Source: a virus. Taken from it: a DNA stretch of 54,420 nucleotides. The stretch is from the IMG/VR virus record IMGVR_UViG_3300044952_000784, positions 1 to 54,420 of that record; one strand, given 5' to 3'. Positions 4,674-48,918 of the stretch are shown here, piece after piece (the first letter of the stretch is position 1; each line of letters opens with the position of its first letter). The position numbers and the translations under genes were made by a program. The notes beneath the pieces were generated by a model that was not told the DNA's origin, searched no databases, and saw nothing but the letters and a program-made list of their open reading frames with translations.

Positions 4674-4690
4674 TATTATAATAAATAGTA
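4674..4690 (-). promoter_or_regulatory. Recurrent A/T promoter-like motif upstream of 4664
   Basis: On the minus strand this reads TACTATTTATTATAATA and ends 9 nt before the start codon of the LamG-like gene. It shares the core TATTTATTA with sites before other first-in-unit genes. It lies in the 40 nt divergent gap between two operons. Confidence 0.4.
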
Positions 4691-4704
4691 TTTAGTGAAT
4701 ATTT

Positions 4705-5956: not shown

Positions 5957-5960
5957 AATT

Positions 5961-6685: not shown

Positions 6686-6709
6686 AATACCAAATAAATA
6701 TTACATAAT

Positions 6710-7282
6710 ATGGAAAATGATTTAATGCAAAAACTAATGAAATCCAAAGCAATAATGGATGTTCACAACAAGTTACCAAGAAGTGGTAACGCAATACCAA
6801 CGGGTGATAATGTTGATTTTTCAATACCAAATGCAAGATATAATATACCTGATGATATACTATCTGAAAATGAAATGACAGCACCAGTTATGCCAATAAG
6901 AAATATTGAAACCCCCTCTGAAGATGCAATAAAGAAATCAAGATTGCCAGATGAAATTAAAAGGATTATGCTGGAACATCCAATTGCACAAGTTCAGCAA
7001 CCTATTGGTAGAAATATTTTAACAGATGAGATGGTTGAAAAAGCATCAAAATTAATGGGCAATAAACCAAAACAAAATATAGTAGAACAAAAACAAGTAT
7101 CAAACACACAAATAGACGCAGAATATATTAAAAAAATTGTAAAAGAAACAGTTAAATCAACCATTAAAGAAATGGGGTTATTAACAGAAAGTACAGAGAA
7201 GTCAGATGAGTTTTTCCAATTTAGGGTGGGGTCACATATTTTTGAAGGTAAAATACAAAAGATTAAAAAAATTAAAAGTTAA
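6710..7282 (+). CDS. Uncharacterised phage protein, last gene before terminator
   Basis: A 190-residue hydrophilic protein of unknown family. The first half is proline-rich and probably disordered (SIPNARYNIPDDILSENEM). The second half has a helical stretch near residues 140-160 (AEYIKKIVKETVKSTIKEMG) and ends with a compact segment FFQFRVGSHIFEGKIQKIKKIK that looks like a short beta element. It closes the 4705-7282 unit; a strong terminator follows 22 nt after its stop. Confidence 0.6.
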   Translation: MENDLMQKLMKSKAIMDVHNKLPRSGNAIPTGDNVDFSIPNARYNIPDDILSENEMTAPVMPIRNIETPSEDAIKKSRLPDEIKRIMLEHPIAQVQQPIGRNILTDEMVEKASKLMGNKPKQNIVEQKQVSNTQIDAEYIKKIVKETVKSTIKEMGLLTESTEKSDEFFQFRVGSHIFEGKIQKIKKIKS

Positions 7283-7303
7283 TTAAATAATTATTTTGTT
7301 TGT

Positions 7304-7343
7304 AAAAAGCAATATGCAATCTCTGCATATTGCTTTTTTTTTT
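7304..7343 (+). terminator. Strong intrinsic terminator
   Basis: A 15 nt stem (AAAAAGCAATATGCA at 7304-7318 pairing with 7324-7338) with a 5 nt loop ATCTC runs into an uninterrupted T tract of ten bases (7334-7343). It separates the small unknown genes from the glycan island. The stem is itself flanked by A and T runs, so weak function on the other strand is possible. Confidence 0.93.
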
Positions 7344-7346
7344 GAT

Positions 7347-7370
7347 TTTATTTATTATATTTAAATATAA
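7347..7370 (+). promoter_or_regulatory. Promoter-like A/T motif before the glycan island
   Basis: TATTTATTATA at 7349-7359 followed by TTTAAATATAA lies between the terminator and the ATG at 7380. It matches the core seen before other unit-opening genes, and its position directly after a terminator is what a promoter needs. Confidence 0.45.
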
Positions 7371-7379
7371 AATATAAAA

Positions 7380-8600
7380 ATGAGTAAACAAATAAAAGTT
7401 TTAGTAGTCCCATCTGACCGCTCTGGGGTTGGAAAATTCCGCTCAATTGACCCCCATCTTTTCTTACAATCAGAATATTCTGGTGAATTTCACATAGATA
7501 TTGATTATGAACCCCCAATGGATGATATGAACTTTTGGAAGAATTATGAAATTGTTGCTTTCCATAGAAGTATTGGTCATGATTTTGATAAAGCAAAGAG
7601 CCTTATATTAACATTAAATAATATGGGTATAATTACAATTTGTGATATTGATGATTATTGGATGCCAACAAAGGATCACCCAATACATGAGATTATAAAA
7701 ATTCATAAAATAAATGAAAAAATAATTGAAAATTTAAAAGCAGCAAAATATGTTACAACAACAACAAAATTATATGCAGATTTAATCAAAAAATATAATA
7801 AAAATGTTTTTGTGTTTCCAAATGCTATAAATCCAAATGACCCCCAATTTAATGAGCCAACCCTTGAATCTGATAGGGTTAGAGTGGGTTGGCTTGGTGG
7901 GTCTAGTCATCAACATGATTTAATGATTTTAGATAAACCATTTAGTTCATTAACAAAATATTCAAATAAATTACAATTTGTATTATGTGGATTTGATACT
8001 AGGGGTTCTGTTACTGAAATTAATTCTGAAACAAAAGAGCAAAAGAAAAGAAATATTAAACCAGAAGAAACTGTATGGGCAAGATATGAAGAAATATTTA
8101 CACAAAAATATTCTACAATAAGTGAGGATTATAAAAAATATTTGTTTAAATTTGTACAAGAACCTTATGATAAAGAAAATAATGAGGCTTATTTAAGAGT
8201 GTGGACAAAACCTGTTACTGCATATGCTAAGAATTATGCAAAATTTGACATATCTTTAGCACCAATAAAGAATCACATTTTTAATGAAATGAAGTCGCAA
8301 TTAAAAGTAATTGAAGCTGGGTTTTATAAAAAAGCATTAATAGCCTCAAACTTTGGTCCTTATACGATTGATTTGAAACATGGATTAGATAGAGGTACTT
8401 TTGTAAAGGGGGGGAATGCTTTGCTTGTTGATGCTGATAGGAATGGGGTTGATTGGGCAAAGTATATTGAAAAGTTACTGAAGAATCCCAACTTAGTACA
8501 AGACCTTGGAGAAAATTTATATGAAACAGTAAAGGATACATATTCCTTAATTACTGTAACAAAAAATAGAGCAGAATTTTATAAGTCACTAATTAAATAA
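7380..8600 (+). CDS. GT4-like (GT-B) glycosyltransferase
   Basis: A 406-residue protein with the C-terminal pattern of GT-B glycosyltransferases: VRVGWLGGSSHQHD near residues 160-173, then VIEAGFYKKALIASNFGPY with GNALLVDADRNGVDWAKYIEKLL and a terminal helix. The N-terminal domain starts with VLVVPSDRSGVGKFRSIDPH, which resembles the nucleotide-sugar-independent acceptor domain of GT4 enzymes found in large phages. The usual EPxGxxxxE motif is reduced to K-V-I-E-A-G. It opens the glycan island after a terminator and promoter-like motif. Donor and acceptor are unknown. Confidence 0.8.
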   Translation: MSKQIKVLVVPSDRSGVGKFRSIDPHLFLQSEYSGEFHIDIDYEPPMDDMNFWKNYEIVAFHRSIGHDFDKAKSLILTLNNMGIITICDIDDYWMPTKDHPIHEIIKIHKINEKIIENLKAAKYVTTTTKLYADLIKKYNKNVFVFPNAINPNDPQFNEPTLESDRVRVGWLGGSSHQHDLMILDKPFSSLTKYSNKLQFVLCGFDTRGSVTEINSETKEQKKRNIKPEETVWARYEEIFTQKYSTISEDYKKYLFKFVQEPYDKENNEAYLRVWTKPVTAYAKNYAKFDISLAPIKNHIFNEMKSQLKVIEAGFYKKALIASNFGPYTIDLKHGLDRGTFVKGGNALLVDADRNGVDWAKYIEKLLKNPNLVQDLGENLYETVKDTYSLITVTKNRAEFYKSLIK

Positions 8601-8607
8601 CTACAAC

Positions 8608-9309
8608 ATGATAAATGTACCTTTAAACAAAATCTTATTCCTTGACATTGAAACTGTTGGTTGTGAAGCCAGTTTTGATGCCTTAAAAACAAACAAACCT
8701 GAATTAGCCTTTCAGTTTGAAAATTATTATGATTGGTTTGAAAAAAGATTTCCAGAGGATGGTGCTGATGGTTTTGATTCTATGTTTCATAATCGTTCAG
8801 CACTTGTTTCTGAGTTCCTAAAAATTGCTTGTGTTTCTCTGGCATTTGTTAATGATGATGGGTCAATTAAAATGCAATCATTTTCTGGAAAAGACGAATT
8901 GGATATTCTTAAAAAAACCCAAAAGGTTCTTCAAAAAGTTGGCTCATTAAATTATTTCCTTTGTGGCCATAATGTTAAGGGATTTGATATTCCAGTATTG
9001 GCTAAGAGAATGATGATTAATGGACTGATGCCCCCAAAGATTTTACCAAGTTTTGATACTAAACCTTGGGAAGTTAAAGCAATAGACACAAAAGACATTT
9101 GGCAATATGGTCAATTTGGTTCAATTGCATCTTTAGAGTTAATGTGTGTTAGTCTTGGTATAGAATCATCAAAGAATATGGATGTTACAGGTAATAAAGT
9201 ACATGACGCATATTGGAATGACAACAATATTGAAGGTATTACAAAATATTGTGAGAGGGATGTTGAGGTTTTAATTGATGTAATTAAGAAACTTTTAATT
9301 TTAAAATAA
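8608..9309 (+). CDS. DnaQ-like 3'-5' exonuclease (PolB-type, DEDDy)
   Basis: A 233-residue predicted exonuclease. All four metal-binding acids of the DEDDy class are visible: D13 and E15 in LDIET, D127 in GHNVKGFDIPVL, and D218 with Y214 in YCERDV. The family (predicted 3'-5' exonuclease related to the PolB proofreading domain, Pfam PF10108) removes nucleotides from 3' ends of single-stranded DNA. No polymerase domain is attached. It lies between a glycosyltransferase and a nucleotidylyltransferase, so it is a DNA-metabolism gene embedded in the glycan island. Confidence 0.88.
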   Translation: MINVPLNKILFLDIETVGCEASFDALKTNKPELAFQFENYYDWFEKRFPEDGADGFDSMFHNRSALVSEFLKIACVSLAFVNDDGSIKMQSFSGKDELDILKKTQKVLQKVGSLNYFLCGHNVKGFDIPVLAKRMMINGLMPPKILPSFDTKPWEVKAIDTKDIWQYGQFGSIASLELMCVSLGIESSKNMDVTGNKVHDAYWNDNNIEGITKYCERDVEVLIDVIKKLLILK

Positions 9310-10322: not shown

Positions 10323-10928
10323 ATGGAGTTAGTTTTGATAGGGGCTGGTGGGTGTGCTAATGAGATTAGAGCTGAAATGAAAAATAATATAAAATGTTTT
10401 GTTGAAGATACTTTCTTTAATGAAAATAATGATAATATTTATCCTTTATCCAAATTTGATCCAAAAAAATATATTGTTTTAGTTGCAATAGGTGATAGTA
10501 AATTAAGAAAAAGTTTAGTTGAAAAATTACCAAAGGAGACTATATATACAAAATATATTAGTCCTTCAGCACAAATTTTAAATAAAAACATTGAATTTGG
10601 CGAAGGTAGTATTGTTTGTTCAGGTGTGATTATTACAACTAATTGTAATTTTGGTAAACACACTCATTTAAACATACATACATCAATAGGTCATGATTGT
10701 AAAATTGGAGATTATTTTACAACTGCTCCTGGTGCAAGAGTTTCAGGAAATTGTAATATTGGAGATGTTGTTTATTTGGGGACTAATTCTAGTGTAAAAC
10801 AGAAGATTAATATTTGTGAAGAAGTTGTAATTGGTTCAAATGGTTGTGTAGTGAAAGATATAAATAAACCTGGAACTTATGTTGGAGTTCCTGTAAAAAT
10901 AATTAAAAATGGCGCAAGGAGTTTATAA
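10323..10928 (+). CDS. NeuD/PglD-type sugar O- or N-acyltransferase
   Basis: The N-terminal LVLIGAGGCANEI (residues 3-15) is the nucleotide-sugar binding start of the NeuD/PglD family, and the second half is a left-handed beta-helix with hexapeptide repeats (IEFGEGSIVCSGVIITTNCNFG, then VVYLGTNSSVKQ). A conserved histidine pair is visible in LNIHTSIGHDCKIGDY, where PglD uses such a His as catalytic base. The family acetylates UDP-amino sugars or sialic acids. The 3' end overlaps the short DegT-type aminotransferase by 20 nt; this PglD/PglE-like pairing suggests acetylation of the amino group made by its neighbour. The substrate is inferred. Confidence 0.88.
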   Translation: MELVLIGAGGCANEIRAEMKNNIKCFVEDTFFNENNDNIYPLSKFDPKKYIVLVAIGDSKLRKSLVEKLPKETIYTKYISPSAQILNKNIEFGEGSIVCSGVIITTNCNFGKHTHLNIHTSIGHDCKIGDYFTTAPGARVSGNCNIGDVVYLGTNSSVKQKINICEEVVIGSNGCVVKDINKPGTYVGVPVKIIKNGARSL

Positions 10929-11553
10929 AATAACTGAAGACTTTGAGAAAAGTATATGCGATTATACTGGAGCACCTTATGCAATTGCTTTAGACAATAT
11001 GAGTAATGCTCTTTTTCTTTCATTGTATTATGAAAAAAACATTAAAAAATCATTGGCCACTGATTATGTAGATTGCCCTTCAAGGACATATCCTTCAGTT
11101 CCTTGTGAAATAATTCATGCAGGGTTAAAAGTTAATTTTACACCTGTAGAGGGTAACACAACTAAAGGCTCATATAGGTTAAACCCAACAAATGTGATAG
11201 ATTCTGCCCTAAGATTTACTGCAAATATGTATATACCAGAAACTCACATGTGTGTATCATTCACAGGACCATACAAAACATTGAAATTGAGTAAAGGCGG
11301 TGCAATTTTAACAGACAATCTGCATGCTGCTATGTGGTTCAAAAGAGCAAGGTTTAGTGGTAGAAGAGAATGTTCTTATCATGATGATTATTTTGATATG
11401 TTAGGTTGGAATTTTTATATGATGCCAGAACTTGCAGCAAGAGGATTATTGATGATGAGTCAATTTTATAACTTGAATGGAACAAAAAAACATAATGAGG
11501 ATTTGGAATTACCATATCCTGATTTATCTACTTATGAAATTTATAAAAAATAA
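10909..11553 (+). CDS. Short DegT/DnrJ/EryC1-like sugar aminotransferase
   Basis: The 214-residue protein matches the large-domain core of PLP-dependent sugar aminotransferases: YAIALDNMSNALFLSL (cofactor phosphate region), IDSA with D98 (pyridine-nitrogen contact) and SFTGPYKTLKLSKGGAIL with the likely Schiff-base lysine K123. Typical members have 360-400 residues; the C-terminal small domain is missing and no room is left before the next gene at 11574. The end (YPDLSTYEIYKK) is shared with the other short copy at 24529-25128, so the shortness looks original and not due to a break. Partner of the NeuD-like acyltransferase that it overlaps. Confidence 0.8.
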   Translation: MAQGVYKITEDFEKSICDYTGAPYAIALDNMSNALFLSLYYEKNIKKSLATDYVDCPSRTYPSVPCEIIHAGLKVNFTPVEGNTTKGSYRLNPTNVIDSALRFTANMYIPETHMCVSFTGPYKTLKLSKGGAILTDNLHAAMWFKRARFSGRRECSYHDDYFDMLGWNFYMMPELAARGLLMMSQFYNLNGTKKHNEDLELPYPDLSTYEIYKK

Positions 11554-20376: not shown

Positions 20377-20790
20377 ATGAAAAAGATATATTCAAAAATT
20401 AATGAAACTAAACTACTACACATAATAGTTAGAAAAAATGAAATAACCCCAGGAAGAGAAGATATAATATCTGGGGATAACTTTATCCAATGTTCAAAAT
20501 TAAATTTAACTAAGGGTACAACATTTAAACCACATAAACATATTTGGAAAGAAAGAACTAGAAATGTAATTGCACAAGAAAGTTGGGTGGTATTACAAGG
20601 GAGCGTCAAATGTATATTTTACGATATTGATGATTCAATTTTAACAACAGAAATTTTATATTTTGGTGATGCATCATTTACATTAGAAGGTGGGCATAAT
20701 TATGAAATATTAGAAGATAACACATTAGTATATGAATATAAAACAGGTCCTTATGAAGGACAAGAATTTGATAAAACTTTTATTTTATGA
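20377..20790 (+). CDS. WbuC-like cupin protein
   Basis: A 137-residue cupin. FKPHKHIWKE with H53 and H55 resembles the metal-binding part of cupin motif 1, ESWVVLQGSVKCIFYD the following strands and GHNYEILEDNTLVYEYKTG the second half. WbuC-type cupins are found in O-antigen clusters and are of uncertain function, possibly sugar modification. A shortened, decayed copy of parts of this gene lies at 21414-21505, on the other side of the FkbM gene. Its stop overlaps the next ATG by 4 nt. Confidence 0.78.
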   Translation: MKKIYSKINETKLLHIIVRKNEITPGREDIISGDNFIQCSKLNLTKGTTFKPHKHIWKERTRNVIAQESWVVLQGSVKCIFYDIDDSILTTEILYFGDASFTLEGGHNYEILEDNTLVYEYKTGPYEGQEFDKTFIL

Positions 20791-21422
20791 GACAAGACAT
20801 TACAAGTTTAAATAAGTGGTTTGGGGATAATGGTGATTATACCCATAACATAAATTATGAATTAAATAACAATTCAATTGTTATTGATTTAGGGGGGTAT
20901 TATGGGTTATGGATTGATGAAATTTTAAAAAAAAATAACCCATATGTTCCTAATATAATATTAGTTGAACCTGTCCCAGACTTTTATAATCATTTAGTTA
21001 CAAAATATGAAAATTATAAAAAAATAAAAGTAATGAATGTAGGTGTATCTACAGATAAAAATGAGGCAACTAAATCTTTATATTTGTCAAATGATGGCTC
21101 ATCAACAAATTTTAATACAAATGGTAATTCTGTAATCCAAATTAAAACCTTACCTATTGATAAAATACTTTCAGATAATAACATTAATCAAGTAGATTTA
21201 CTTCAGATTAATATTGAGGGCGATGAATATGCATTAATGGAATATATGATTGAAAGTAAAATTATTAATAAATTTAAAAATATACAAATACAGTTTCATT
21301 TAGGTATTGAAAATGATATAGAAAGAAGAATTAATATTCAAAAAAACTTAATTTATAATGGATTTGAAAATAAATTTGATTATCCTTTTGTTTGGGAGTC
21401 ATGGGAAAAAAATAAAATGTAA
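20787..21422 (+). CDS. FkbM-family methyltransferase with a recombinant 3' end
   Basis: A 211-residue SAM-dependent methyltransferase: IVIDLGGYYGLWIDEIL (near 31-47) is motif I, IILVEPVPDFYNHL motif II, and VDLLQINIEGDEYALMEYM the FkbM signature. It probably O-methylates a sugar. The last codons and the TAA stop fall in sequence homologous to the middle of the neighbouring cupin gene (compare AATGTAATT at 21416-21424 with 20564-20572), so the present C-terminus was probably created by recombination. The protein still has the expected fold length. Confidence 0.88.
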   Translation: MRQDITSLNKWFGDNGDYTHNINYELNNNSIVIDLGGYYGLWIDEILKKNNPYVPNIILVEPVPDFYNHLVTKYENYKKIKVMNVGVSTDKNEATKSLYLSNDGSSTNFNTNGNSVIQIKTLPIDKILSDNNINQVDLLQINIEGDEYALMEYMIESKIINKFKNIQIQFHLGIENDIERRINIQKNLIYNGFENKFDYPFVWESWEKNKM

Positions 21423-21505
21423 TTATCCAAGAAAGTTGGGTATTAGTATATGAATATAAAACAGATTTCTGCAAAAGGTAAGAATTAGATAAAACATTTC
21501 TATAA
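21414..21505 (+). pseudogene. Decayed internal-deletion copy of the cupin gene
   Basis: The sequence CCAAGAAAGTTGGGT near 21427-21441 matches CACAAGAAAGTTGGGT in the cupin gene (20573-20588), and ATTAGTATATGAATATAAAA directly after it matches the cupin 3' part near 20724-20743. The tail AGAATTAGATAAAACATTTC corresponds to the cupin end. About 130 nt between the two blocks are missing and the frame is destroyed. It is a fossil of a second cupin copy left between the FkbM and FabH-like genes. Confidence 0.85.
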
Positions 21506-22450
21506 ATGAAGAGTGATAAAGTAACAATAATTGGTACTGGGTCTTATCTACCTAATAGGGTTGTGAGTAATAGTGAACTATGTAAAAACATAGACACAAC
21601 ACCAGAATGGGTTGAACAAAAATTAGGTATTTTAGAAAGAAGATTTATTGCTGATGAGAAAACTTCTGATTTAGCTTACTATGCTGCCATAAATGCTTTA
21701 GAATCGGCTAACATAAATAAAGAAGATTTAGATTTAATTATAGTAGTTACTTCTAGTCCTGATCAAATATCACCATCAACTGCATGTGTTTTACATAATA
21801 AATTAGATATTGAAAAAAATGTACCATCATTTGATATTAATGCAGTTTGTGCTGGGTTTGTCTATGCTATGTCATTTGCATCAACATTAATTAGTACTGG
21901 TATATATAAAAATATATTAATTGTTGCTAGTGAAACATATTCTAAACATACTAACTTAAATAATCGTCATTGTGTATTTTTTGGCGATGGTGCTGGAGCT
22001 GTAGTTTTAGGACCCTCAGATAATAGTTGGATGGTAAGTGAAATATTGTCTAATGGTAAAGGTACTGGTATGACAGGTTTTAGAATGCCATTAGATAAAC
22101 CATTTGAAATGGTAGGCAAAGAAGTTTGGGAACAAGCAACTAAAGTATTACCTGAATCAATTAAAAGTGTTTTAAAAGAAGCTAATTTAACAGCTGATGA
22201 TATTAATATGTTAGTACCACATCAACCTAGTATTAATATATTAAAGTTGGTTGCAAAAGATGTTGGTTTACCAATGCATAAAGTAAAAACAATAATGGAT
22301 AAATATGGTAATATTGCAGGTGCATCAATACCAATTGCTTTAGATGATGCAATTAAATCAGGTGAAATAACTTATGGTGATAATATATTATTATCAGCTG
22401 TTGGTGCTGGTTGGGCTTGGGGTTCAATGATAATTAAGTATAATCAATGA
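21506..22450 (+). CDS. FabH-like 3-oxoacyl-ACP synthase III
   Basis: A full-length ketoacyl synthase III (314 residues; E. coli FabH has 317). The complete triad is visible: C115 in FDINAVCAGF, H239 in VPHQPSINIL and N269 in YGNIAGASIP; GDGAGAVVL and the C-terminal GAGWAWGSMIIKY are also typical. KAS III condenses an acyl-CoA with malonyl-ACP. The enzyme is very unusual in a phage and, being followed by an SDR reductase and an acyltransferase within overlapping or close genes, probably makes a short 3-oxoacyl group for a sugar instead of membrane lipid. That role is inferred; it would depend on host ACP and malonyl donors. Confidence 0.95.
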   Translation: MKSDKVTIIGTGSYLPNRVVSNSELCKNIDTTPEWVEQKLGILERRFIADEKTSDLAYYAAINALESANINKEDLDLIIVVTSSPDQISPSTACVLHNKLDIEKNVPSFDINAVCAGFVYAMSFASTLISTGIYKNILIVASETYSKHTNLNNRHCVFFGDGAGAVVLGPSDNSWMVSEILSNGKGTGMTGFRMPLDKPFEMVGKEVWEQATKVLPESIKSVLKEANLTADDINMLVPHQPSINILKLVAKDVGLPMHKVKTIMDKYGNIAGASIPIALDDAIKSGEITYGDNILLSAVGAGWAWGSMIIKYNQ

Positions 22451-23097
22451 TTATGAAAAAAATAGTTGTTTTTGGTGGAAAAGGTGGTCTTGGAACTAAA
22501 TTAGTACCATTTCTTAAAAAAAAATATGAAGTAATTGATTTAAGTAGTAAAGACGTTGATGTAACAAACCCAAAAGAAGTAAATAATTTTTTTAATGAAA
22601 ATCAAGTAGATATTGTTTTAAATATGTCAGGTAAAAAATATGATGTATTTTTAAATAGTATTACTGAGGATGATTATAAAGAAATTGATGATATGTTGAA
22701 TGTAAACATAAAAGGTAATATAAATATACTTTCTGGATGCTTACCAAATATGATTAAAAATAAATGGGGTAGAGTGATATCAATATCTTCAATTTTTTCT
22801 GAAATGAATGTACCTAAAAATTCATTATATTGTGCATCAAAAGCTTTTTTGGATAGATTAATTTCGGTTGCTAATAAAGAAAATATAAAACATGGAATAA
22901 CATGTAATACAATACAACTAGGATATTGGGATGGTGGAATGGGTGATAGAGTTGAATCTAAATATCAAGATATTGCAAAAGAAAAAATAGGTTTAAAAAG
23001 GTTTGGTAAAACTGAAGAATTATATAATACTATTGATTATATTATAGAAAATGAATATTTTTGTGGTGGTAATTTAAAAATAAATGGTGGATTATAA
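22447..23097 (+). CDS. Short-chain dehydrogenase/reductase (FabG-like)
   Basis: A 216-residue SDR. GGKGGLG (10-16) binds NAD(P)H, and the catalytic tetrad is complete: N87 in NVNIKG, S114 in ISISSIF, and Y128 with K132 in YCASKAF. The final GGNLKINGGL is the classical SDR C-terminus. Directly coupled to the FabH-like gene (ATGA overlap), it is a natural candidate for reducing the 3-oxoacyl product to a 3-hydroxyacyl group, although a sugar-ring reductase is an alternative. The start could be the second Met at 22453. Confidence 0.9.
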   Translation: MIMKKIVVFGGKGGLGTKLVPFLKKKYEVIDLSSKDVDVTNPKEVNNFFNENQVDIVLNMSGKKYDVFLNSITEDDYKEIDDMLNVNIKGNINILSGCLPNMIKNKWGRVISISSIFSEMNVPKNSLYCASKAFLDRLISVANKENIKHGITCNTIQLGYWDGGMGDRVESKYQDIAKEKIGLKRFGKTEELYNTIDYIIENEYFCGGNLKINGGL

Positions 23098-23106
23098 ATA
23101 TAAAAA

Positions 23107-23637
23107 ATGAAAAAATTAAAAAAAGTGGGGAAAGATGTTAGGGTTAGTAATTTAGCAATAATATCAAGACCTGAATTAGTTGAAATAGGTAATCATGTAG
23201 CAATTGATATGTGGACTTATATATCAACTCAAGCAATATTGGGGGATTATATTCATATTGCACCAAGTGTTTCAATTATAGGTGGTGCGCCAGCATTAAT
23301 TGTTATGGAAGATTTTACTAACATTGGTTCTGGAAGTAGAATTGTCTGCGCAAGTGATGATTTTACTCAAGGATTAATATCGCCTGTTGTTCCATTAGAA
23401 CATCGAATGGTCATAAATAAACCAGTAATATTTAAAAGATACTCTACTTTAGGTGTTAATTGTACTGTTTTACCTGGTGTAACATTAGGTGAAGGGTCAA
23501 TAGTTGGAGCTGGGTCTGTTGTTACTAAAGATACAGAACCTTGGACAGTATATGCTGGATCACCAGCAAAACCAATCAAAACGAGAGATTCAAAACAAAT
23601 ATTAGAAAGTGCTAAAAAACTTATGAACTATGAATAA
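23107..23637 (+). CDS. Hexapeptide-repeat acyltransferase
   Basis: A 176-residue left-handed beta-helix transferase. Repeats such as VEIGNHVAIDMWTYI, AILGDYIHIAPSVSIIGG and TLGEGSIVGAGSVVTKD are clear, ending in the YAGSPAKPIKTR signature of the LacA/maltose acetyltransferase and NodL group. Such enzymes transfer acetyl or other short acyl groups from CoA or ACP to sugars. Its position just after ketosynthase and reductase genes suggests that it transfers their product to a sugar. Confidence 0.9.
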   Translation: MKKLKKVGKDVRVSNLAIISRPELVEIGNHVAIDMWTYISTQAILGDYIHIAPSVSIIGGAPALIVMEDFTNIGSGSRIVCASDDFTQGLISPVVPLEHRMVINKPVIFKRYSTLGVNCTVLPGVTLGEGSIVGAGSVVTKDTEPWTVYAGSPAKPIKTRDSKQILESAKKLMNYE

Positions 23638-24532
23638 TTTTAAACCATCAAACAACTCATTAGACATTCCATGGATTGAATCACCATTTTTTCACGAATT
23701 ATTGGATGATTCAGGGCTAACCAATAAACAAAAAGAAAATTGTAAATTTTATAATGAAAATGGTTATCTTATTATTGATTTAGAATTAACTGATGATGAT
23801 ATATTACCAATAGTAAATGACACGTATAGTGCACTAAATAATGAAAATACTACATATCATGCTGACCACTTTCAATATACAGAAAGTAAAAGAATATTTG
23901 AACATTGGAAAAAAAGTGACTCAATTGCTAATTTAACAATACACCCTAAAATTATTAATACTCTTAGTTATTTATATGGAAAAACGCCATTTCCATTTTC
24001 AACTATTAATTTTATTAAAGGTAGTAATCAACCACTACATAGTGATACAATACATTTTCACACAATACCACATCTTTGGATGGTTGGTGTGTGGGTAGCA
24101 TTTGAAGATGTTGATGAAACTAATGGCACTTTAAAAATAATACCGGGTAGTCATAAATGGCCAGTATATGAATACCATAATCTTAATTTACCTCACCCTG
24201 ATACTATTGAAAATGGGGAATCTAATAATTATAAAATATATGAAGATTTTTTAATTGAATTAATAAAAAGTAAAAAAGCCTCTGAAAAAAACGTAAGTTT
24301 AAAAAAAGGACAAGCTTTAATATGGGCTTCAAATATGTTGCATGGTGGCTGTAATGTTGAAGGTGTTACAGATTTTAATAAAACTAGATTAACTCAAGCC
24401 AATCATTATTTTTTTGAGGGGTGTGCCAAACATTACCATCCAATGTTTTCAAGACCGTTAGAAGGTCAATACGCACTTAAATGGTGTGATGATAACAACA
24501 ATATTAAAACCTATTTAAATGATAAAAAATGA
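23630..24532 (+). CDS. PhyH-type Fe(II)/2-oxoglutarate dioxygenase
   Basis: A 300-residue oxygenase with the iron-binding triad H137-x-D139 (QPLHSDT) and H238 (NMLHGGC), and the 2-oxoglutarate-binding R253 (NKTRLTQ). The intermediate VGVWVAFEDVDETNGTLKIIPGSHKW is highly typical of phytanoyl-CoA dioxygenase-like enzymes. They hydroxylate aliphatic or acyl positions. In this context hydroxylation of the acyl chain or sugar built by the neighbours is plausible. The 5' end overlaps the acyltransferase gene by 8 nt and the 3' end overlaps the short aminotransferase by 4 nt. Confidence 0.92.
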   Translation: MNNFKPSNNSLDIPWIESPFFHELLDDSGLTNKQKENCKFYNENGYLIIDLELTDDDILPIVNDTYSALNNENTTYHADHFQYTESKRIFEHWKKSDSIANLTIHPKIINTLSYLYGKTPFPFSTINFIKGSNQPLHSDTIHFHTIPHLWMVGVWVAFEDVDETNGTLKIIPGSHKWPVYEYHNLNLPHPDTIENGESNNYKIYEDFLIELIKSKKASEKNVSLKKGQALIWASNMLHGGCNVEGVTDFNKTRLTQANHYFFEGCAKHYHPMFSRPLEGQYALKWCDDNNNIKTYLNDKK

Positions 24533-25128
24533 ATTTTGAAGTAGTTTCAACTTTTGAAAATAAAATATCAGAGTTTTTTGGTTCTTCTTATGCAGTTGCT
24601 GTTGATAGTTGTACACATGGGTTAGAATTATGTTTAAGATATGTTAAAGAAACCAAAATTAATGTACCTACAAGAACATATTTGTCTGTACCATTTTTGG
24701 CAGAAAAAATAGGTATAGAACTAGAATGGAGATATGAAGATTGGGAAAATTATTATACACTTAATTATGGTGATAAAAGAATTATTGATGCAGCAGTATT
24801 GTGGAAAAAAAATAGTTATATTCCCAACACATTTATGTGTGTTAGTTTTCAATATCAAAAACATCTTTCATTAGGTAGAGGGGGTATTATTTTACTTGAT
24901 AATGAAATTGATTATATTTCATTAAAGAAAATGTCTTATGATGGAAGATTACCTAACATACCGTGGAGAGACCAAGATATAGACACTCTTGGATTTCATT
25001 ATTATATGACACCTGAGATTGCACAATTAGGACTAAATAAATTACAAGATGCAATCAATACCCCACCAAGGCAATGGGTAGTTACTGATTGGCCTGATTT
25101 AACTAAAATGAAAATTTTTAAAAAATAA
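24529..25128 (+). CDS. Second short DegT/DnrJ/EryC1-like sugar aminotransferase
   Basis: A 199-residue PLP-fold protein. YAVAVDSCTHGLELCL corresponds to the cofactor phosphate site, IIDAAV has D87, and SFQYQKHLSLGRGGIIL carries the probable Schiff-base lysine K111. As in the copy at 10909-11553, the C-terminal half of the usual 360-400 residue enzyme is absent, and the end (WPDLTKMKIFKK) matches that copy. It lies directly before gmd (1 nt gap): GDP-4-keto-6-deoxymannose would be a logical substrate, giving GDP-perosamine as in known DegT-type perosamine synthases. This is inference; amino-transfer by such a short protein is unproven. Confidence 0.8.
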   Translation: MNFEVVSTFENKISEFFGSSYAVAVDSCTHGLELCLRYVKETKINVPTRTYLSVPFLAEKIGIELEWRYEDWENYYTLNYGDKRIIDAAVLWKKNSYIPNTFMCVSFQYQKHLSLGRGGIILLDNEIDYISLKKMSYDGRLPNIPWRDQDIDTLGFHYYMTPEIAQLGLNKLQDAINTPPRQWVVTDWPDLTKMKIFKK

Positions 25129-25129
25129 T

Positions 25130-26128
25130 ATGAAAAAAGCATTTATTACAGGAATTAATGGGCAAGATGGCTCATACTTATCAGAATATTTATTGTCTTT
25201 AGGATATGAAGTTTATGGCATTGTTAGAAGAAATTCAGTACCTGAACACCAACAAAGCCGTATTGAATCCATAAAAGATAGAATGTATGTTTATTATGGG
25301 GATGTTTTAGACCAAACAAATTTACAAAAATTATTAGATAAAATACAACCTGATGAAATATATAATTTAGCAGCACAAAGTCATGTTAGAATAAGTTTTG
25401 ATATACCAGAATTTACATTACAAACAAATTCAAATGGTGTTTTAAATATGTTAGAAGCCTATAGAAGAAGTTGTCCAAATGCTAAATTTTATCAAGCATC
25501 ATCATCAGAAATGTTTGGAAACTCTGTTGATAGTGATGGCTTTCAACGAGAAACAACACCAATGATACCAGTATCACCATATGGGTGTTCTAAATTATCT
25601 GCATATTCATTAGTTAGAAGTTACAGAAGGGGTTATGGATTACATGCTGTAAATGGAATACTATTCAATCATGAATCCCCAAGAAGGGGATCCAATTTTG
25701 TAACAAGCAAAGTTATTAAAACTGCTCTTGAAATAAAACATGGATTAGCAAATAAACTAGTCATTGGCAATATGGATTCATATAGAGATTGGGGTCATTC
25801 TAAAGATTATGTAAAAGCAATGCACTTATTATTAAACCACAATACACCAGATGATTATGTTGTATCAACAATGAAAACTCATTCAGTTAGAGAAATGATT
25901 GATTATGTATTTACTAAACTAGAACTTGATTATAATCTATATGTTGTCCAAGACCAAGAATTTATGAGACCTGAAGAATTAAAATATCTTAAAGGTGATT
26001 CTACTAAAATTAGAAAAGAATTTGGTTGGAAGCCAGAATATACTTTTGAAATGTTAATGGATGAAATGATTGAGCATTGGGATGAACAAGTTAGGATTAC
26101 TAAAATGATTAATAATAAAAAATATTAG
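25130..26128 (+). CDS. gmd: GDP-mannose 4,6-dehydratase, first copy
   Basis: A 332-residue extended SDR: TGINGQDGSYLSEYLL (NADP binding, 7-22), VRRNSVPEHQQSRIE (nucleotide contact), YQASSSEMFGNS with S125 and E127, SPYGCSK with Y151 and K155, and NHESPRRGSNFVTSKV. It converts GDP-mannose to GDP-4-keto-6-deoxymannose, the branch point to GDP-fucose, GDP-rhamnose and GDP-perosamine. The E. coli Thr of the T-E-Y-K set is replaced by Ser, which is common. Next genes are GDP-fucose synthase and a second gmd. Confidence 0.96.
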   Translation: MKKAFITGINGQDGSYLSEYLLSLGYEVYGIVRRNSVPEHQQSRIESIKDRMYVYYGDVLDQTNLQKLLDKIQPDEIYNLAAQSHVRISFDIPEFTLQTNSNGVLNMLEAYRRSCPNAKFYQASSSEMFGNSVDSDGFQRETTPMIPVSPYGCSKLSAYSLVRSYRRGYGLHAVNGILFNHESPRRGSNFVTSKVIKTALEIKHGLANKLVIGNMDSYRDWGHSKDYVKAMHLLLNHNTPDDYVVSTMKTHSVREMIDYVFTKLELDYNLYVVQDQEFMRPEELKYLKGDSTKIRKEFGWKPEYTFEMLMDEMIEHWDEQVRITKMINNKKY

Positions 26129-26133: not shown

Positions 26134-27036
26134 ATGCTAAAATTGTTAGTAACTGGTGGATATGGTTTAGTTGGTTCACATATTAAATCAGATATTAAGA
26201 TTGGAAGTGAAATTGATTTAACAAACCCCCACCTTACATATGAAGCCTTTGAAAAGCATAAACCAACACATATTATTCATTGTGCTGGTAAAGTTGGTGG
26301 ACTTGGGGGTAATATGAAGTATAAGGGTGAATATTTCTATGATAACATTATGATAAACACAAATGTTATAGAATCAGCAAGGAAGGTTGGAGTTGAAAAT
26401 TTGGTTTGTTTCTTATCCACTTGTGTATTTCCAGATAATATTGATTACCCCCTAACTGAAAAGAAGATACATTTGGGTGAGCCTCATTCATCAAATTATC
26501 CCTATGCTTATGCCAAGAGAATGGCAGATATACAAATTAGGGCATATAGAGAACAATATGGGTTAAATTATAAATCAGTAATACCAACAAACATATATGG
26601 TTCTAATGATAATTTCTCATTAGAGCATGGTCATGTTATTCCTATGTTAATTCATAAATTATTTTTGGCAAAAGAAACAAAAACTGATTTTATTGTTTGG
26701 GGATCTGGTAAACCATTAAGAGAATTTATTTATGTTAAAGATGTTGCAAGATTAAGTGAATGGGTTTTAAATAATTACAATGAATCTGAACCAATTATTT
26801 TGAGTCCCTCATCTGAAATTAGTATAAGAGATTTGGTTGACTTATTGGTAAATTATTTTAACTTTAAGGGTAAGGTAATATTTGATGATTCTAAACCTGA
26901 TGGACAATTTAGAAAGCCATCTGATAATAGCAAATTGATGTCATATTTACCAGATTTTAAATTCACCCCAATTGAGGAGGGGTTGAAGGAAACAGTTGAG
27001 TGGTTTATTGAAAATTATACTTATGCAAGAAAATAA
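26134..27036 (+). CDS. fcl: GDP-L-fucose synthase (GMER)
   Basis: A 300-residue epimerase/reductase: TGGYGLVG (7-14), CAGKVGGLGGN, the active-site STC (S95, C97) in FLSTCVFP, Y124 and K128 in YPYAYAKRM, and H167 in EHGHVIP. It turns GDP-4-keto-6-deoxymannose into GDP-L-fucose by 3,5-epimerisation and 4-reduction. With gmd on either side and a GT11 fucosyltransferase upstream in the same island, the complete fucose supply and transfer route is present. Confidence 0.95.
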   Translation: MLKLLVTGGYGLVGSHIKSDIKIGSEIDLTNPHLTYEAFEKHKPTHIIHCAGKVGGLGGNMKYKGEYFYDNIMINTNVIESARKVGVENLVCFLSTCVFPDNIDYPLTEKKIHLGEPHSSNYPYAYAKRMADIQIRAYREQYGLNYKSVIPTNIYGSNDNFSLEHGHVIPMLIHKLFLAKETKTDFIVWGSGKPLREFIYVKDVARLSEWVLNNYNESEPIILSPSSEISIRDLVDLLVNYFNFKGKVIFDDSKPDGQFRKPSDNSKLMSYLPDFKFTPIEEGLKETVEWFIENYTYARK

Positions 27037-28024
27037 AATAGCATTGATATCTGGGATAAATGGTCAAGATGGATCATACTTAGCAGAATTATTGATTGAG
27101 AAAGGATATGAAGTTCATGGAACATTGAAAAGAAATTCAGTTGCAGAAAATCAAACATCAAGATTGGATAATATATATGATAAGTTAAAATTACATTATG
27201 CTGATTTGACTGACTTATCATCATTAATTAGAGTAATACAAGATGTTAGACCTAATGAGATATATAATTTGGCAGCACAATCTCATGTAAGAATATCATT
27301 TGACCAACCCATTTACACAGCAAATGCAACTGGACTTGGCGTTTTAAACTTACTTGAAGCGGTTAAACTTGTAGATAAGTCAATTAAAATATACCAGGCA
27401 TCATCATCTGAAATGTTTGGTAATTCAATTGATGCTGATGGATTTCAAAGGGAAACAACGCCTTTAAATCCGGTATCACCCTATGGTTGTTCAAAAGTAT
27501 TTGGGTATAATATTGCAAGAAATTATAGAAATTCATATGGTATGTTTATATCAAATGGGATTTTATTTAATCACGAATCCCCAAGAAGGGGGACAAACTT
27601 TGTAACAAACAAGGTGGTTAAACAAGCAGTTAAAATAAAATTGGGATTAGCTAATTCATTAAGTTTGGGTAATTTGGATGCTACAAGGGACTGGGGACAC
27701 GCAAAAGATTATGTGGAGGCAATGTGGTCAATATTGCAATTAGATAATCCTGATGACTTTGTGTGTGCCACAGGGGTATCCCATTCTGTTAGAGAATTGT
27801 GTGAATATGTTTTTTCATACTTGGGGTTAAATTATATGGATTATGTAAAACAAGATGAAAAATTTTATAGACCAGAAGAACTATATGATTTAAAAGGAGA
27901 TGCAACAAAATTAAGGAAAACAATTAACTGGCAACCAAAATATACATTTGAAACAATGCTTGATGAAATGATAGAATATTGGTTACATAAATTTAATGAT
28001 GAAAATTTGACTACTAAATTCTAG
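27023..28024 (+). CDS. gmd: GDP-mannose 4,6-dehydratase, second copy
   Basis: A paralogue of the gene at 25130-26128, with ISGINGQDGSYLAELL, LKRNSVAENQTSRLD, YQASSSEMFGNS, SPYGCSK and NHESPRRGTNFVTNKV all conserved. The open frame extends upstream to 26996, but I choose the ATG at 27023 (MQENKIALISG), as the fold starts there; it still overlaps fcl by 14 nt. The two copies differ in many surface positions, so this is an old duplication or a separate acquisition. Why two are kept is unclear; one may feed fucose and the other an amino- or deoxy-sugar. Confidence 0.94.
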   Translation: MQENKIALISGINGQDGSYLAELLIEKGYEVHGTLKRNSVAENQTSRLDNIYDKLKLHYADLTDLSSLIRVIQDVRPNEIYNLAAQSHVRISFDQPIYTANATGLGVLNLLEAVKLVDKSIKIYQASSSEMFGNSIDADGFQRETTPLNPVSPYGCSKVFGYNIARNYRNSYGMFISNGILFNHESPRRGTNFVTNKVVKQAVKIKLGLANSLSLGNLDATRDWGHAKDYVEAMWSILQLDNPDDFVCATGVSHSVRELCEYVFSYLGLNYMDYVKQDEKFYRPEELYDLKGDATKLRKTINWQPKYTFETMLDEMIEYWLHKFNDENLTTKF

Positions 28025-37878: not shown

Positions 37879-38586
37879 ATGGAAAAAGAAACATTAAAAA
37901 GAATATTTGAATTCCTTGAAGAGAAAGGAGAACATAGAGCACCATTTAAATGGAAAATATTAAATAATGAGCCAATAACCAAAGAAGATTTAGATGTTAT
38001 AGGTAATTTGTGGTTTTATGAAACAACAATAACCTCATTACCAGAAGGTTTGAAAGTTGGTGGTAATTTCGATTTAAGAAGATCAAAAATAACCTCATTG
38101 CCAGAAGGTTTGAAAGTTGGGGGTAATTTGAATTTAGGTTCAACAAAAATAACATCATTACCTGAAGGATTGGAAGTTGGTGGTGATTTGTTTTCATCTA
38201 ATACAGATATAACCTTGCTACCAAAAGGATTGAAAGTTGGTAGGGATTTGTATTTAAATAATACAAAAATAACTTCATTACCAGAAGGATTGAAAGTTGG
38301 AGGGCATTTAGTTTTAAATAATACAAAAATAACTTCATTACCAGAAGGACTTGAAGTTAGGAAAGATTTGGTGTTATTTGGTTGTAAAAATATACAATCA
38401 TTGCCAGAAGGTTTAAAAGTTGGTGGTGATTTGGATTTAAGACTAACAGATTTAACCTCATTACCAAAAGGATTGAAAGTTTATGGATCTATAATGTTGA
38501 ATCTTTCCCATTTAGATGAAATTAGTAATTATAGATTAAGAAAGATGATTCAACCTGGATTTATAAAAGGAAAAATAGTTAGATAA
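37879..38586 (+). CDS. LRR paralogue 1, eight repeats
   Basis: First and, with eight repeats, the most repeat-rich plus-strand member (235 residues). The N-terminal module is MEKETLKRIFEFLEEKGEH then PFKWKILNNEPITKEDL; repeats run from ITSLPEGLKVGGNFDL (about residue 53) to LTSLPKGLKVYGSIML; the cap is NYRLRKMIQPGFIKG. It starts 7 nt behind a virion gene. LRR repeats usually bind proteins; no catalytic domain, signal peptide or membrane segment is seen, so it should stay in the infected cell or the virion. Its partner is unknown. Confidence 0.88.
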   Translation: MEKETLKRIFEFLEEKGEHRAPFKWKILNNEPITKEDLDVIGNLWFYETTITSLPEGLKVGGNFDLRRSKITSLPEGLKVGGNLNLGSTKITSLPEGLEVGGDLFSSNTDITLLPKGLKVGRDLYLNNTKITSLPEGLKVGGHLVLNNTKITSLPEGLEVRKDLVLFGCKNIQSLPEGLKVGGDLDLRLTDLTSLPKGLKVYGSIMLNLSHLDEISNYRLRKMIQPGFIKGKIVR

Positions 38587-39182
38587 TGGAAAAAGAAACA
38601 ATTGAAAAAATACTTGATTTTCTTGAAGAAAAGGAAGGGGTAATACCTAAAAATAATTTAAGGTGGAAGTTATTATTTAATAAACCATTAACAAAAGATG
38701 AATTAAATATAAAAGATGATTTGAATTTAATGTACTCAAGTATAGAATCATTACCAGAAGGGTTAAAAGTTGAGGGGGACTTAATTTTAACATTTTCAAG
38801 AATACAATCATTACCAGAAGGATTAAAAGTTGGGAAGCATTTGTTTTTAGCATATTCAAAAATAACCTCATTACCAAAAGGATTGAAAGTTGGTGGTAAT
38901 TTGCATTTAAATTATACATCCATTAGTTCATTACCTAATGACTTAAAAATTAGGGGTTTTTTGGATTTATATTCTTGCAAAGATTTAATTTCACTACCAG
39001 AAGGATTAAAAGTTGGTAAATATTTGAATTTAAAAGATACAAAAATAACATCATTACCAAAAGGGTTAGAAGTTAGGGGGGTATTGTATATAGAAAATAC
39101 CCCATTACGAAAATACACAGATGGACAATTAAGAGAAATGGTTTATCCTGGATTTATAAAAGAAAAAATATCAAGATTGTGA
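38586..39182 (+). CDS. LRR paralogue 2, six repeats
   Basis: A 198-residue member with N-terminal module MEKETIEKILDFLEEKEG and LRWKLLFNKPLTKDELN, six repeats (IESLPEGLKVEGDLILTFSR to ITSLPKGLEVRGVLYIENTP) and cap YTDGQLREMVYPGFIKEKI. One repeat has the Cys variant (YSCKD). Its start overlaps the stop of paralogue 1 by one base, and its own stop overlaps a GTG start of paralogue 3. Confidence 0.88.
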   Translation: MEKETIEKILDFLEEKEGVIPKNNLRWKLLFNKPLTKDELNIKDDLNLMYSSIESLPEGLKVEGDLILTFSRIQSLPEGLKVGKHLFLAYSKITSLPKGLKVGGNLHLNYTSISSLPNDLKIRGFLDLYSCKDLISLPEGLKVGKYLNLKDTKITSLPKGLEVRGVLYIENTPLRKYTDGQLREMVYPGFIKEKISRL

Positions 39183-39592: not shown

Positions 39593-39595
39593 ATA

Positions 39596-47127: not shown

Positions 47128-48918
47128 TTATCTTAACTCTTGTAAGTCAAATGTTCTAACACCATCAACCGTAATTCTACCGTAGAAACGGTTGTTAACT
47201 AGTTTTTTAGCATATCTTGTCATTATACCTTTAATTGGTGTAAAGTTGAATGGATTATACATTGTTGGTGTTAATTGTAATGGTACATATGGTGCATAGA
47301 TATAACCAGTGTCTAATAATGATGTTCCTTTGTGTCCCATTAACACTTGGTTTGCTGGGAAGTAAGGGTCACGATATACTTGGTAACGACCTGCTAATGT
47401 ACCAACTCTTTCAATACCCATGTTGTATTGGTCTTGGTCAGGAGATGCATTTGATACGTGGAAGTATTCCAAATCATCAAAAATTGCACTAACTTCAGAA
47501 GAAACAACAATCCAGTTTGCACCACCTCTCAATGTTGATTTGTGGATTTGTGCTGATACTTGGTTAATAGTTGTGATTAATGTTTGATTCCAGTCTTTCT
47601 GTGTGTAAGGGATAGCGTTTGTACCCAATCTCTTCCAACCATTGTAATCCCAACGTAAATTCCAAGCAGCACCTTTTCTAAGGTCTCTTAAAATTTCTCT
47701 ATCAATCTCAGCTGCAATTTGCTCTGATAATAAAGCAGTTAATTCTGCTTCAGCATCAATGTTATGGAATGCAGCAACGTCTTGTGCCATTTCTGGTGAC
47801 CATTGTGCTCTTAACTTTCTTTCTGTAACTGAAACAGTAACTGATTGTAAATCAAAAGAAACCTCACCAATTTTATCTTCAAATTCTAAACTCTTGTAAA
47901 TTCTATAAGTTGCTGTAAAGTCAGTTGCGGCTGTACCTGAAATTGATGTTGTGAAACCTGTGTAACCATCTAATGAATCTGCACCAACTGTTGCAGGTCT
48001 TTGTAAATCAACTTCAAGATAAACAACACCAGCAGGTGTTGATAAATCATTGTATGATCCACCTCCTGTTCTACTACTAGGGAAAGTTATTGTATTCTCA
48101 GAACCATATTGAACAAGCCCTTTTGCATATTTCTGTGTAACAACTCTAAACAATAATGGATTGCCAAGTCCAGATGCTGTTGTAACACCAGAGAATGCAC
48201 CACCTGCTGATGTACTTGCATAAACAGTCAAACCAGCCAAGAAACTTTCATTATCCATTGGATGACCATCAGGTCCAATTAATTTACCTTCACCATCAGA
48301 TCCAAAACCTGTCAAAGCTAGTATAACTCTTCTATAATTACCTGCTGAATAACCTGAAGTAACTAATGAACCATCACTCCAAACAACTGTAGTACCTGTT
48401 GCAGTAACTGCACTATATTGTCCTTTTGAATAATCATAAAGACCTTCTGGGTTTAAGCTTGGCTCATTACCTTCATAAAATCTATCATATAAATTTTTTC
48501 CACTACCATAACCAGTAGTTGGTGTTTGAGTATCTGCTGCACCTGGAGCACCATATGGTGAATAGTGTGCACCAGAATTTGCTTCTTGGATTTGAGGTAC
48601 AAAGAAGAACAGTTTACCAATTGGTAAATTCATTGCCTGTACAGATACAATATCATTAGCCAATAATTTAGAGAATACTCTCCTAACGATTGGGAAAACA
48701 ACTGTTTCAAACGCACCAGTATCAGATGTACTAGCCGCTTCGTTAATAAGATATGATGCTTGGTTTTCATATAACTGTGCAACATTCTCTTTTAAATGAC
48801 CTTTTAAGCCTTCAAGGAATCCTAATTTATTCCATTTGTTAATTGTATCTTCTTTGATAACTTTTAGGTGTTTCAACCCAATATTACCAACAAGACCTGA
48901 TTCTAATAATGCTCCCAT
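47128..48918 (-). CDS. 23: Major capsid protein, T4 gp23-like
   Basis: A 596-residue protein with the gp23 signature: ALLESGLVGNIGLK at the start, LYENQASYLINEAA near 49-62 and LLANDIVSVQAMNLPIGKLFFFVPQIQ near 85-110. T4 gp23 has 521 residues; the additional length is in a Gly/Ser/Thr-rich insert around residues 115-330, likely the outward insertion domain. The second half contains VSVTERKLRAQWSPEMAQDV and LTALLSEQIAAEIDREILRDL, typical of the HK97-like core of this group. Located between its terminator and the scaffold gene upstream, within the minus-strand head unit. Confidence 0.95.
   Translation of the reverse strand: MGALLESGLVGNIGLKHLKVIKEDTINKWNKLGFLEGLKGHLKENVAQLYENQASYLINEAASTSDTGAFETVVFPIVRRVFSKLLANDIVSVQAMNLPIGKLFFFVPQIQEANSGAHYSPYGAPGAADTQTPTTGYGSGKNLYDRFYEGNEPSLNPEGLYDYSKGQYSAVTATGTTVVWSDGSLVTSGYSAGNYRRVILALTGFGSDGEGKLIGPDGHPMDNESFLAGLTVYASTSAGGAFSGVTTASGLGNPLLFRVVTQKYAKGLVQYGSENTITFPSSRTGGGSYNDLSTPAGVVYLEVDLQRPATVGADSLDGYTGFTTSISGTAATDFTATYRIYKSLEFEDKIGEVSFDLQSVTVSVTERKLRAQWSPEMAQDVAAFHNIDAEAELTALLSEQIAAEIDREILRDLRKGAAWNLRWDYNGWKRLGTNAIPYTQKDWNQTLITTINQVSAQIHKSTLRGGANWIVVSSEVSAIFDDLEYFHVSNASPDQDQYNMGIERVGTLAGRYQVYRDPYFPANQVLMGHKGTSLLDTGYIYAPYVPLQLTPTMYNPFNFTPIKGIMTRYAKKLVNNRFYGRITVDGVRTFDLQELR

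Follow-up and report, generated by a model that had tools for sequence, protein, structure and literature searches.

A putative phage-encoded pathway for an N-(3-hydroxyacyl) amino sugar that includes a viral beta-ketoacyl synthase III

The IMG/VR virus record IMGVR_UViG_3300044952_000784, a contig of 54,420 bases with a G+C content of 28% that was analysed in full and is called the window here, carries four adjacent genes for a beta-ketoacyl synthase III (KAS III, FabH-like), a short-chain reductase (SDR), a hexapeptide N-acyltransferase and a PhyH-type Fe(II)/2-oxoglutarate oxygenase. The four are real and intact, the contig is genuinely from a phage, and they form the acyl-supply portion of a larger unit, at 20377-26128, which comprises a cupin, the four genes, a half-size DegT-family aminotransferase and a guanosine diphosphate (GDP)-mannose 4,6-dehydratase. 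As a whole, the unit is best explained as a pathway by which the phage itself would make an N-acylated amino sugar, a reading to which we assign a probability of roughly 0.57. Gene families, catalytic residues, linkage and conservation were established by sequence or fold; the substrates, the order of the steps, the target of the oxygenase and the acceptor of the sugar are what we infer. The N-(3-hydroxyacyl) amino-sugar module, of the type defined by the acyltransferase AntD, recurs in many large phages.

Among solved structures, the acyltransferase has one close relative. A profile of seven viral sequences matched AntD at 122-125.5 bits and the next protein at 54.4, and the window sequence by itself matched the AntD entries 3vbi-3vbp at 103.6 bits. 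The best predicted model (predicted local distance difference test, pLDDT, 91.0; the other four models 67-73) could be superposed on 3vbi over 174 aligned residues with a Z of 27.4 and a root-mean-square deviation of 1.8, followed by FdtD (Z 21.0) and PerB (Z 20.1). All NCBIfam matches were below their cut-offs, so that the enzyme falls in no named NCBIfam equivalog. By its title, 3vbj is Bacillus cereus AntD with thymidine diphosphate (dTDP) and 3-hydroxybutyryl-coenzyme A (CoA), and other titles name dTDP-4-amino-4,6-dideoxyglucose. The two positions mutated in solved AntD structures are Asp94 and Ser84, of which the former aligns with Asp84 of the window enzyme and is Glu in the relative L013. 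The first-pass annotation had proposed that KAS III and the SDR make a 3-hydroxyacyl group, which the hexapeptide enzyme transfers to a sugar. This part of the proposal is supported, because the nearest solved relative was crystallised with 3-hydroxybutyryl-CoA and because an amino sugar would be provided by the aminotransferase and dehydratase encoded alongside. With a KAS III and a ketoreductase beside an AntD-like enzyme, the acyl group that first suggests itself is 3-hydroxybutyryl. The dTDP-anthrose pathway of B. cereus, to which AntD belongs, differs in using a dTDP-glucose-type sugar, whereas the phage unit has a GDP-mannose dehydratase; moreover, the anthrose operon is not known to include a KAS III. 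On a plasmid of Ilyobacter, the same kind of acyltransferase adjoins an aminotransferase, RfbA and a dTDP-glucose dehydratase. The sugar there is probably dTDP-linked, while that of the window is predicted to derive from GDP-mannose.

The window KAS III scores above the cut-offs of TIGR00747 (312.6 bits against 292.1) and NF006829 (331.1 against 249), and its triad, C115/H239/N269, is invariant in an alignment of seven viral relatives. Across 43 viral proteins, the Cys-His-Asn triad is always kept, together with a tryptophan which we take to stack against CoA. In these respects the enzyme resembles FabH of type II fatty-acid synthesis, but it departs from FabH at two other sites. The first is the position of E. 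coli Phe87, presumably the gate residue, which is Ser in 40 of the 43 viral proteins (Ser89 in the window) and Ala in three. An entrance enlarged in this way might admit substrates for an acyl group other than 3-hydroxybutyryl, namely a branched or longer 3-hydroxyacyl group, or 3,5-dihydroxyhexanoyl built on a 3-hydroxybutyryl starter; a C6 chain could arise if KAS III took a C4 starter, with which the small gate residue is compatible. In a Shewanella polysaccharide, a passage of PMC3210612 describes Qui4N bearing 3-hydroxybutyrate or 3-hydroxy-3-methylbutyrate. A different acyl group nevertheless seems rather unlikely to us, as Phe is found at the gate in just six of 12 bacterial reference proteins, which makes the residue a weak guide, and the closest acyltransferase, AntD, is known to carry an acyl group of four carbons.

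The second site is the patch formed in E. coli by Lys214, Arg249, Lys256 and Lys257, which we take to be the basic surface for docking of acyl carrier protein (ACP). The window protein has E209, N244, K251 and D252 there. Among the 43 viral proteins, the Lys214 position is Glu or Asp in 33 and the Arg249 position is Asn in 32, with Arg or Lys retained at the latter in ten; the mean charge over the four positions is -0.86, versus +1.75 in the 12 reference proteins. The patch is also weak in three acidobacterial reference proteins. The window protein is a KAS III, and its docking patch would not imply a dependence on ACP like that of FabH. In a quick tree, 43 of 46 viral rows fell in one group, which includes one long-branch actinobacterial row (Shimodaira-Hasegawa-like approximate likelihood ratio support 84, not starred), and the rows L061, L062 and L063 fell outside it. 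L063 has, at 4302-9000, a KAS III, a PglD-like gene and several open reading frames (ORFs) that resemble desaturases by eye. A scan of IMG/VR for KAS III recovered 15 loci, and one with the seven-row alignment recovered 57 viral loci. The genome scan returned only six bacterial relatives, at 39-43% identity, and since it requires exact short patterns it may miss closer sources. At E 0.001, PHROGs offered no family for either KAS III or PhyH. Matches in 23 records labelled as phage (Listeria, Staphylococcus, Helicobacter and others), all less than 60% identical, were not counted; they are presumably host FabH in prophages or poorly filtered entries.

The SDR has the residues N87/S115/Y128/K132, invariant in an alignment of 13 viral relatives, and its top solved match is an acetoacetyl-CoA reductase (120.4 bits), with FabG next (109.5 bits). 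In the PhyH protein, H137-x-D139/H238/R253 are invariant in 18 of 18 viral relatives; no match to it was found at E 1e-5 among 50,697 phage records. The acyl chain is the probable target of hydroxylation by the oxygenase, the sugar being the alternative. In five loci (L208, L217, L219, L228 and L232, around 6001-6837), no gene separates PhyH from the SDR that follows it, whereas in relatives KAS III is interposed, a pattern that loss or gain of KAS III by itself would produce.

The aminotransferase is a half-size member of the DegT family. K111, the lysine that binds pyridoxal phosphate (PLP), and D87, presumably the aspartate facing PLP N1, are invariant in all 24 aligned members, and in the Caulobacter enzyme the residue aligned with K111 is K186. 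By profile, the best solved relative is a perosamine synthetase. The model (pLDDT 93.9) places 193 of its 199 residues onto GDP-perosamine synthase 3bn1 (Z 18.3, 2.5 A), and the 50 DegT-type entries listed for it all fall within Z 17.2-19.3, so narrow a range that the fold does not fix the sugar position. Its activity is predicted to be like that of PerA, although we do not class it as PerA. Counting copies, 120 aminotransferase ORFs in the later loci were shorter than 260 residues and 16 were longer, 15 of the latter being weak matches. Half-size forms also occur in cultured phages. For example, in Flavobacterium phage vB_FspM_immuto (L070) the gene adjoins one annotated as a pilin glycosylation protein, with no annotated KAS III in the surrounding stretch that was viewed, and in cyanophage S-SCSM2R (L066, 7998-8585) it is annotated as 3-amino-5-hydroxybenzoic acid synthase and lies near radical SAM and amidinotransferase genes. 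As for the next gene, the solved relatives of its product are GDP-mannose 4,6-dehydratases.

The first-pass annotation was correct about the coordinates and contiguity of the four genes, as the ORF positions and junctions show: KAS III overlaps the SDR gene by 4 nt, a 9-nt gap follows, and the acyltransferase overlaps PhyH by 8 nt. Its family assignments were borne out by Pfam and NCBIfam, and the catalytic residues it named for KAS III, the SDR and PhyH are present. It had, however, ended the cassette at PhyH, and the run continues through a 4-nt overlap into the aminotransferase and a 1-nt gap to the dehydratase. The ratio of nonsynonymous to synonymous substitution rates (dN/dS) was 0.06-0.13 for KAS III, SDR, acyltransferase and PhyH in seven of eight pairs, with synonymous changes saturated in the eighth, and 0.06-0.24 in 13 of 14 pairs over the seven genes tested, with one pair saturated. 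The genes are thus under purifying selection and not decaying.

Gene neighbourhoods were counted within 5 kb of each query gene, and some loci reach a contig end within that distance. The acyltransferase loci were taken from the best 80 of 190 matches, 62 remaining after near-copies were dropped by shared 4-mers; the PhyH loci from the best 80 of 81 matches, 79 of which were reduced to 52 in the same way; and for KAS III, an identity table removed 13 of 59 viral loci, leaving 46. In the acyltransferase and PhyH sets, dehydratase matches below 300 bits and SDR matches below 180 bits were not counted, and a recount added floors for the other families. Around the 62 acyltransferases, we found an aminotransferase in 61, a cupin in 56, a dehydratase in 55, KAS III in 26, PhyH in 24 and an SDR in 17; in the recount, the aminotransferase (at least 150 bits) stood at 60, the cupin at 55 and the other counts were the same. 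By these counts, the core consists of cupin, acyltransferase, aminotransferase and dehydratase, to which KAS III, SDR and PhyH appear to be an addition for acyl supply. Of the 52 PhyH loci, 48 had the acyltransferase, 34 KAS III and 34 the SDR. The 46 viral KAS III loci had an aminotransferase in 37 (eight of them weak and of the full-length type), an AntD-like gene in 33, an SDR in 26 (three weak), PhyH in 26, a dehydratase in 25, a cupin in 24 and a PglD-like gene in five. Six loci (L024, L026, L029, L033, L040 and L056) combine KAS III with a second type of half-size aminotransferase and have no strong dehydratase match nearby, and L056 is also without the acyltransferase; the sugar in this sub-group is probably a different one. 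A 595-kb uncultured phage (L068, 7594-10523) has a cupin, an AntD-like gene, a full-length DegT gene and a GDP-mannose dehydratase, with no KAS III nearby.

The same counts bear on the idea that KAS III, SDR and PhyH work in the metabolism of fatty acids or membranes in the infected cell and stand beside sugar genes by chance. Phages can carry fatty-acid genes: passages of two papers report acpP, fabF and fabG in prophages, with the statement that fabD and fabH are not in those phages (PMC8224337), and fabF with a 2-oxoglutarate-type oxygenase in freshwater pelagimyophages (PMC7029224). The desaturase-like ORFs near the KAS III of L063 point the same way. Against this, an AntD-like gene or an aminotransferase accompanies most viral KAS III genes, in many of these loci the KAS III and acyltransferase genes touch or overlap, and the ACP-docking positions are mostly changed. 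A role in fatty-acid metabolism is thus very improbable.

In the pathway that we favour, the dehydratase would convert GDP-mannose to GDP-4-keto-6-deoxymannose, and the half-size aminotransferase would turn this into a 4-amino-4,6-dideoxyhexose of the GDP-perosamine type. KAS III would join a short acyl starter, probably acetyl-CoA, to a malonyl unit, and the SDR, or the host FabG where a phage is without the SDR, would reduce the 3-keto group. The AntD-like enzyme could then transfer 3-hydroxybutyryl onto the 4-amine, after which PhyH may hydroxylate the acyl chain or else the sugar, and phage glycosyltransferases would attach the sugar, most likely in the cytoplasm and to structural proteins of the phage. 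We consider the probable product to be a GDP-4-amino-4,6-dideoxyhexose that bears an N-(3-hydroxybutyryl) group, perhaps hydroxylated. The boldest part of the proposal is that CoA thioesters may serve at every stage of the pathway, as they do for AntD, a chemistry that we liken to that of the acetoacetyl-CoA synthase NphT7. In its fullest form, which we offer only tentatively, a KAS III lineage of T4-like phages would have left fatty-acid synthesis, giving up ACP docking for CoA thioesters in the manner of an acetoacetyl-CoA synthase, and with its partners (reductase, AntD-like acyltransferase, oxygenase and half-size aminotransferase) would dress the virion in (di)hydroxybutyryl-perosamine as a mimic of host surface sugars.

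Several observations weigh against this pathway. The acyltransferase is only about 35% identical to AntD, AntD binds a dTDP sugar and not a GDP sugar, and AntD Ser84 is replaced by Gly74 in the window enzyme. By fold alone, the aminotransferase is equally near sugar 3-aminotransferases and perosamine synthase, and with its 199 residues it is without the C-terminal domain of the family, in which a full chain has about 370 residues. The pathway gives no step to the cupin, which is part of the conserved unit: TIGR04366 is matched by 12 of 12 members, the window member falling below the 42-bit cut-off, and no match was obtained to a family of FdtA-type 3,4-ketoisomerases. KAS III was not seen near 36 of the 62 acyltransferases, some of which lie at contig ends. 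The SDR is missing near about half of the viral KAS III genes, and 15 of the 18 PhyH loci without KAS III have a strong SDR match, which speaks against an obligate pairing of KAS III with the SDR and suggests that the SDR may serve another step or that the keto-acyl group may come from the host.

Table 1. Genes of the unit and other features of the window
Feature	Position	Strand	Evidence
Cupin, WbuC-like (weak)	20377..20790	+	TIGR04366, 36.6 bits vs 42-bit cut-off
FkbM-type methyltransferase	20787..21422	+	Pfam PF05050, NCBIfam TIGR01444
Beta-ketoacyl synthase III (KAS III, FabH-like)	21506..22450	+	TIGR00747 above cut-off; residues
Short-chain reductase, FabG / acetoacetyl-CoA reductase type	22447..23097	+	Pfam/NCBIfam; residues; solved relatives
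Hexapeptide N-acyltransferase, AntD-like	23107..23637	+	Nearest solved relative AntD 3vbi-3vbp
PhyH-type Fe(II)/2-oxoglutarate oxygenase	23630..24532	+	PF05721 78.4 bits; residues
Half-size (199 aa) DegT-family PLP aminotransferase	24529..25128	+	PF01041 50.1 bits; profile; model
GDP-mannose 4,6-dehydratase	25130..26128	+	PF16363 377.4 bits; solved relatives of same function
GDP-L-fucose synthase-like epimerase/reductase (putative)	26134..27036	+	PF01370 165.7 bits
Second GDP-mannose 4,6-dehydratase	27023..28024	+	PF16363 399.9 bits on longer TTG-start ORF 26996-28024
PglD/NeuD-like N-acyltransferase	10323..10928	+	PF17836 PglD_N and Hexapep
Second half-size DegT aminotransferase	10909..11553	+	PF01041 48.2 bits; aligned with first half-size aminotransferase
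Gp23-type major capsid protein	47128..48918	-	PF07068 253 bits; marks contig as phage

The destination of the sugar is a separate question. The same kind of acyl amino sugar might be added to host lipopolysaccharide, O-antigen or capsule through the export machinery of the host, blocking superinfection or altering the surface. Phage sugar genes are often read in this way, and a passage of PMC7029224 favours O-chain modification for pelagimyophages; N-3-hydroxybutyryl sugars are known on bacterial O-antigens, including those of the Cytophaga-Flavobacterium-Flexibacter group, according to part of PMC3210612. On the other side, neither a Wzx-type flippase (PF01943) nor a phosphoglycosyl transferase (PF02397) was matched in any of 49 viral records, while control matches were obtained in 13 and nine of 14 genomes, respectively; all the viral records searched are fragments, which limits the meaning of such absences. 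By a crude hydropathy scan, none of the 68 ORFs of the window has more than one hydrophobic span, the nine that match Pfam glycosyltransferases included, and at least four spans were seen in only two of the 938 ORFs near KAS III genes of viral loci, both in L063. These results favour cytoplasmic glycosylation of phage proteins over the building of O-antigen. The missing export genes could also be compatible with use of the host machinery, which counts against our placement of the sugar; we consider host-surface modification possible but unlikely.

One specific product suggested by the first-pass annotation, a dihydroxyhexanoyl group as in Flavobacterium, found no specific support. According to part of PMC6519341, the wfp O-polysaccharide genes of Flavobacterium psychrophilum, which give 3,5-dihydroxyhexanoyl on Qui2NAc4N, resemble the phage unit in having ketosynthases, a ketoreductase and a PglD-like acyltransferase proposed to attach the hydroxyacyl group to a 4-amino sugar, but they include two ketosynthases and a dedicated ACP and work on a sugar derived from uridine diphosphate (UDP)-GlcNAc. 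The phage unit has one KAS III, an AntD-like acyltransferase and a GDP-mannose route, and ACP (PF00550) was matched in none of the 49 viral records, against control matches in 11 of 14 genomes. Hydroxylation of the acyl group, as the same annotation had envisaged, would be the task of PhyH. Its interpretation was right in kind, in part supported, and is now sharper.

Two further systems can be compared. The UDP-viosamine pathway of Mimivirus (R141, L136, L142) is alike in that a virus produces a 4-amino-4,6-dideoxyhexose and N-acylates it for use on its own particle; unlike the phage unit, it uses an acetyl group and a UDP sugar in a eukaryotic giant virus, and the sections of PMC4691112 that describe it report no ketosynthase. 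GDP-perosamine synthase (PerA/RfbE) with PerB shares the series of dehydratase, aminotransferase and N-acyltransferase on a GDP sugar. The phage differs in its half-size aminotransferase, in an acyltransferase closer to AntD than to PerB, and in the addition of KAS III, SDR and PhyH. Passages in the literature also list Gmd, fcl and rfbE perosamine synthetase in a table of a karst-lake virus study (PMC8226683) and N-3-hydroxybutyryl 4-amino sugars in bacteria (PMC3210612, PMC8074265). In the open-access literature, we found no description of a phage KAS III sugar cassette, identical or otherwise, and searches on hydroxybutyramido clusters and on flagellin viosamine returned nothing. What is new is the half-size aminotransferase and the added viral KAS III; acyl sugars as such are not.

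Host contamination, which the first-pass annotation had raised as a danger, can be ruled out. Seven further IMG/VR records contain the stretch, with identities of 100% or close to it in the genes compared; two of them (L002 and L016) cover it only partly where their contigs end, and the three longest (113, 107 and 80 kb) have Gp23 capsid genes on the same contig. The window itself encodes Gp23 and a prohead protease. Across the 49 viral records, Gp23 was matched in 17 (14 above cut-off) and tail sheath in ten (seven above cut-off). The top-ranked relatives of the window capsid (35-44% identity across 56-66% of its length) belong to an uncultured phage, Microcystis phage Mel-JY01, the Flavobacterium immuto phages and Rhodothermus phage RM378, and a Shine-Dalgarno-like motif precedes seven of 45 gene starts, which is the background rate of 15%. 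The capsid relatives and this lack of a Shine-Dalgarno excess would fit a Bacteroidota host. No tRNA was found by a scan of the whole window.

Other genes of the window may contribute to sugar metabolism. Upstream of KAS III, the cupin is followed by an FkbM-type methyltransferase, found beside the unit in some relatives only. Downstream of the dehydratase are a fucose-synthase-like gene, as we read it, and a second dehydratase; the former is not beside the unit in many relatives and is probably accessory, part of a separate GDP-fucose branch. The PglD-like acyltransferase and second half-size aminotransferase at 10323-11553 form a possible second amino-sugar branch. Flanking the capsid gene on both sides (37879-45350 and 51127-52881) are sixteen short ORFs, counted by eye, that share an N-terminus and repeated 'SLPEGLKVGG' leucine-rich-type motifs.

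If the proposed pathway is correct, it would be a case of a phage building its own acyl group for glycosylation, joining fatty-acid-type chemistry to viral sugar decoration. It would provide a concrete product to seek on virions and would suggest that phages copy or pre-empt the antigen chemistry of their hosts. Both a half-size aminotransferase and a KAS III lineage in which the usual ACP patch is missing would offer glycochemists small, soluble enzymes. The gene set was found in dozens of viral records and is therefore not a one-off.

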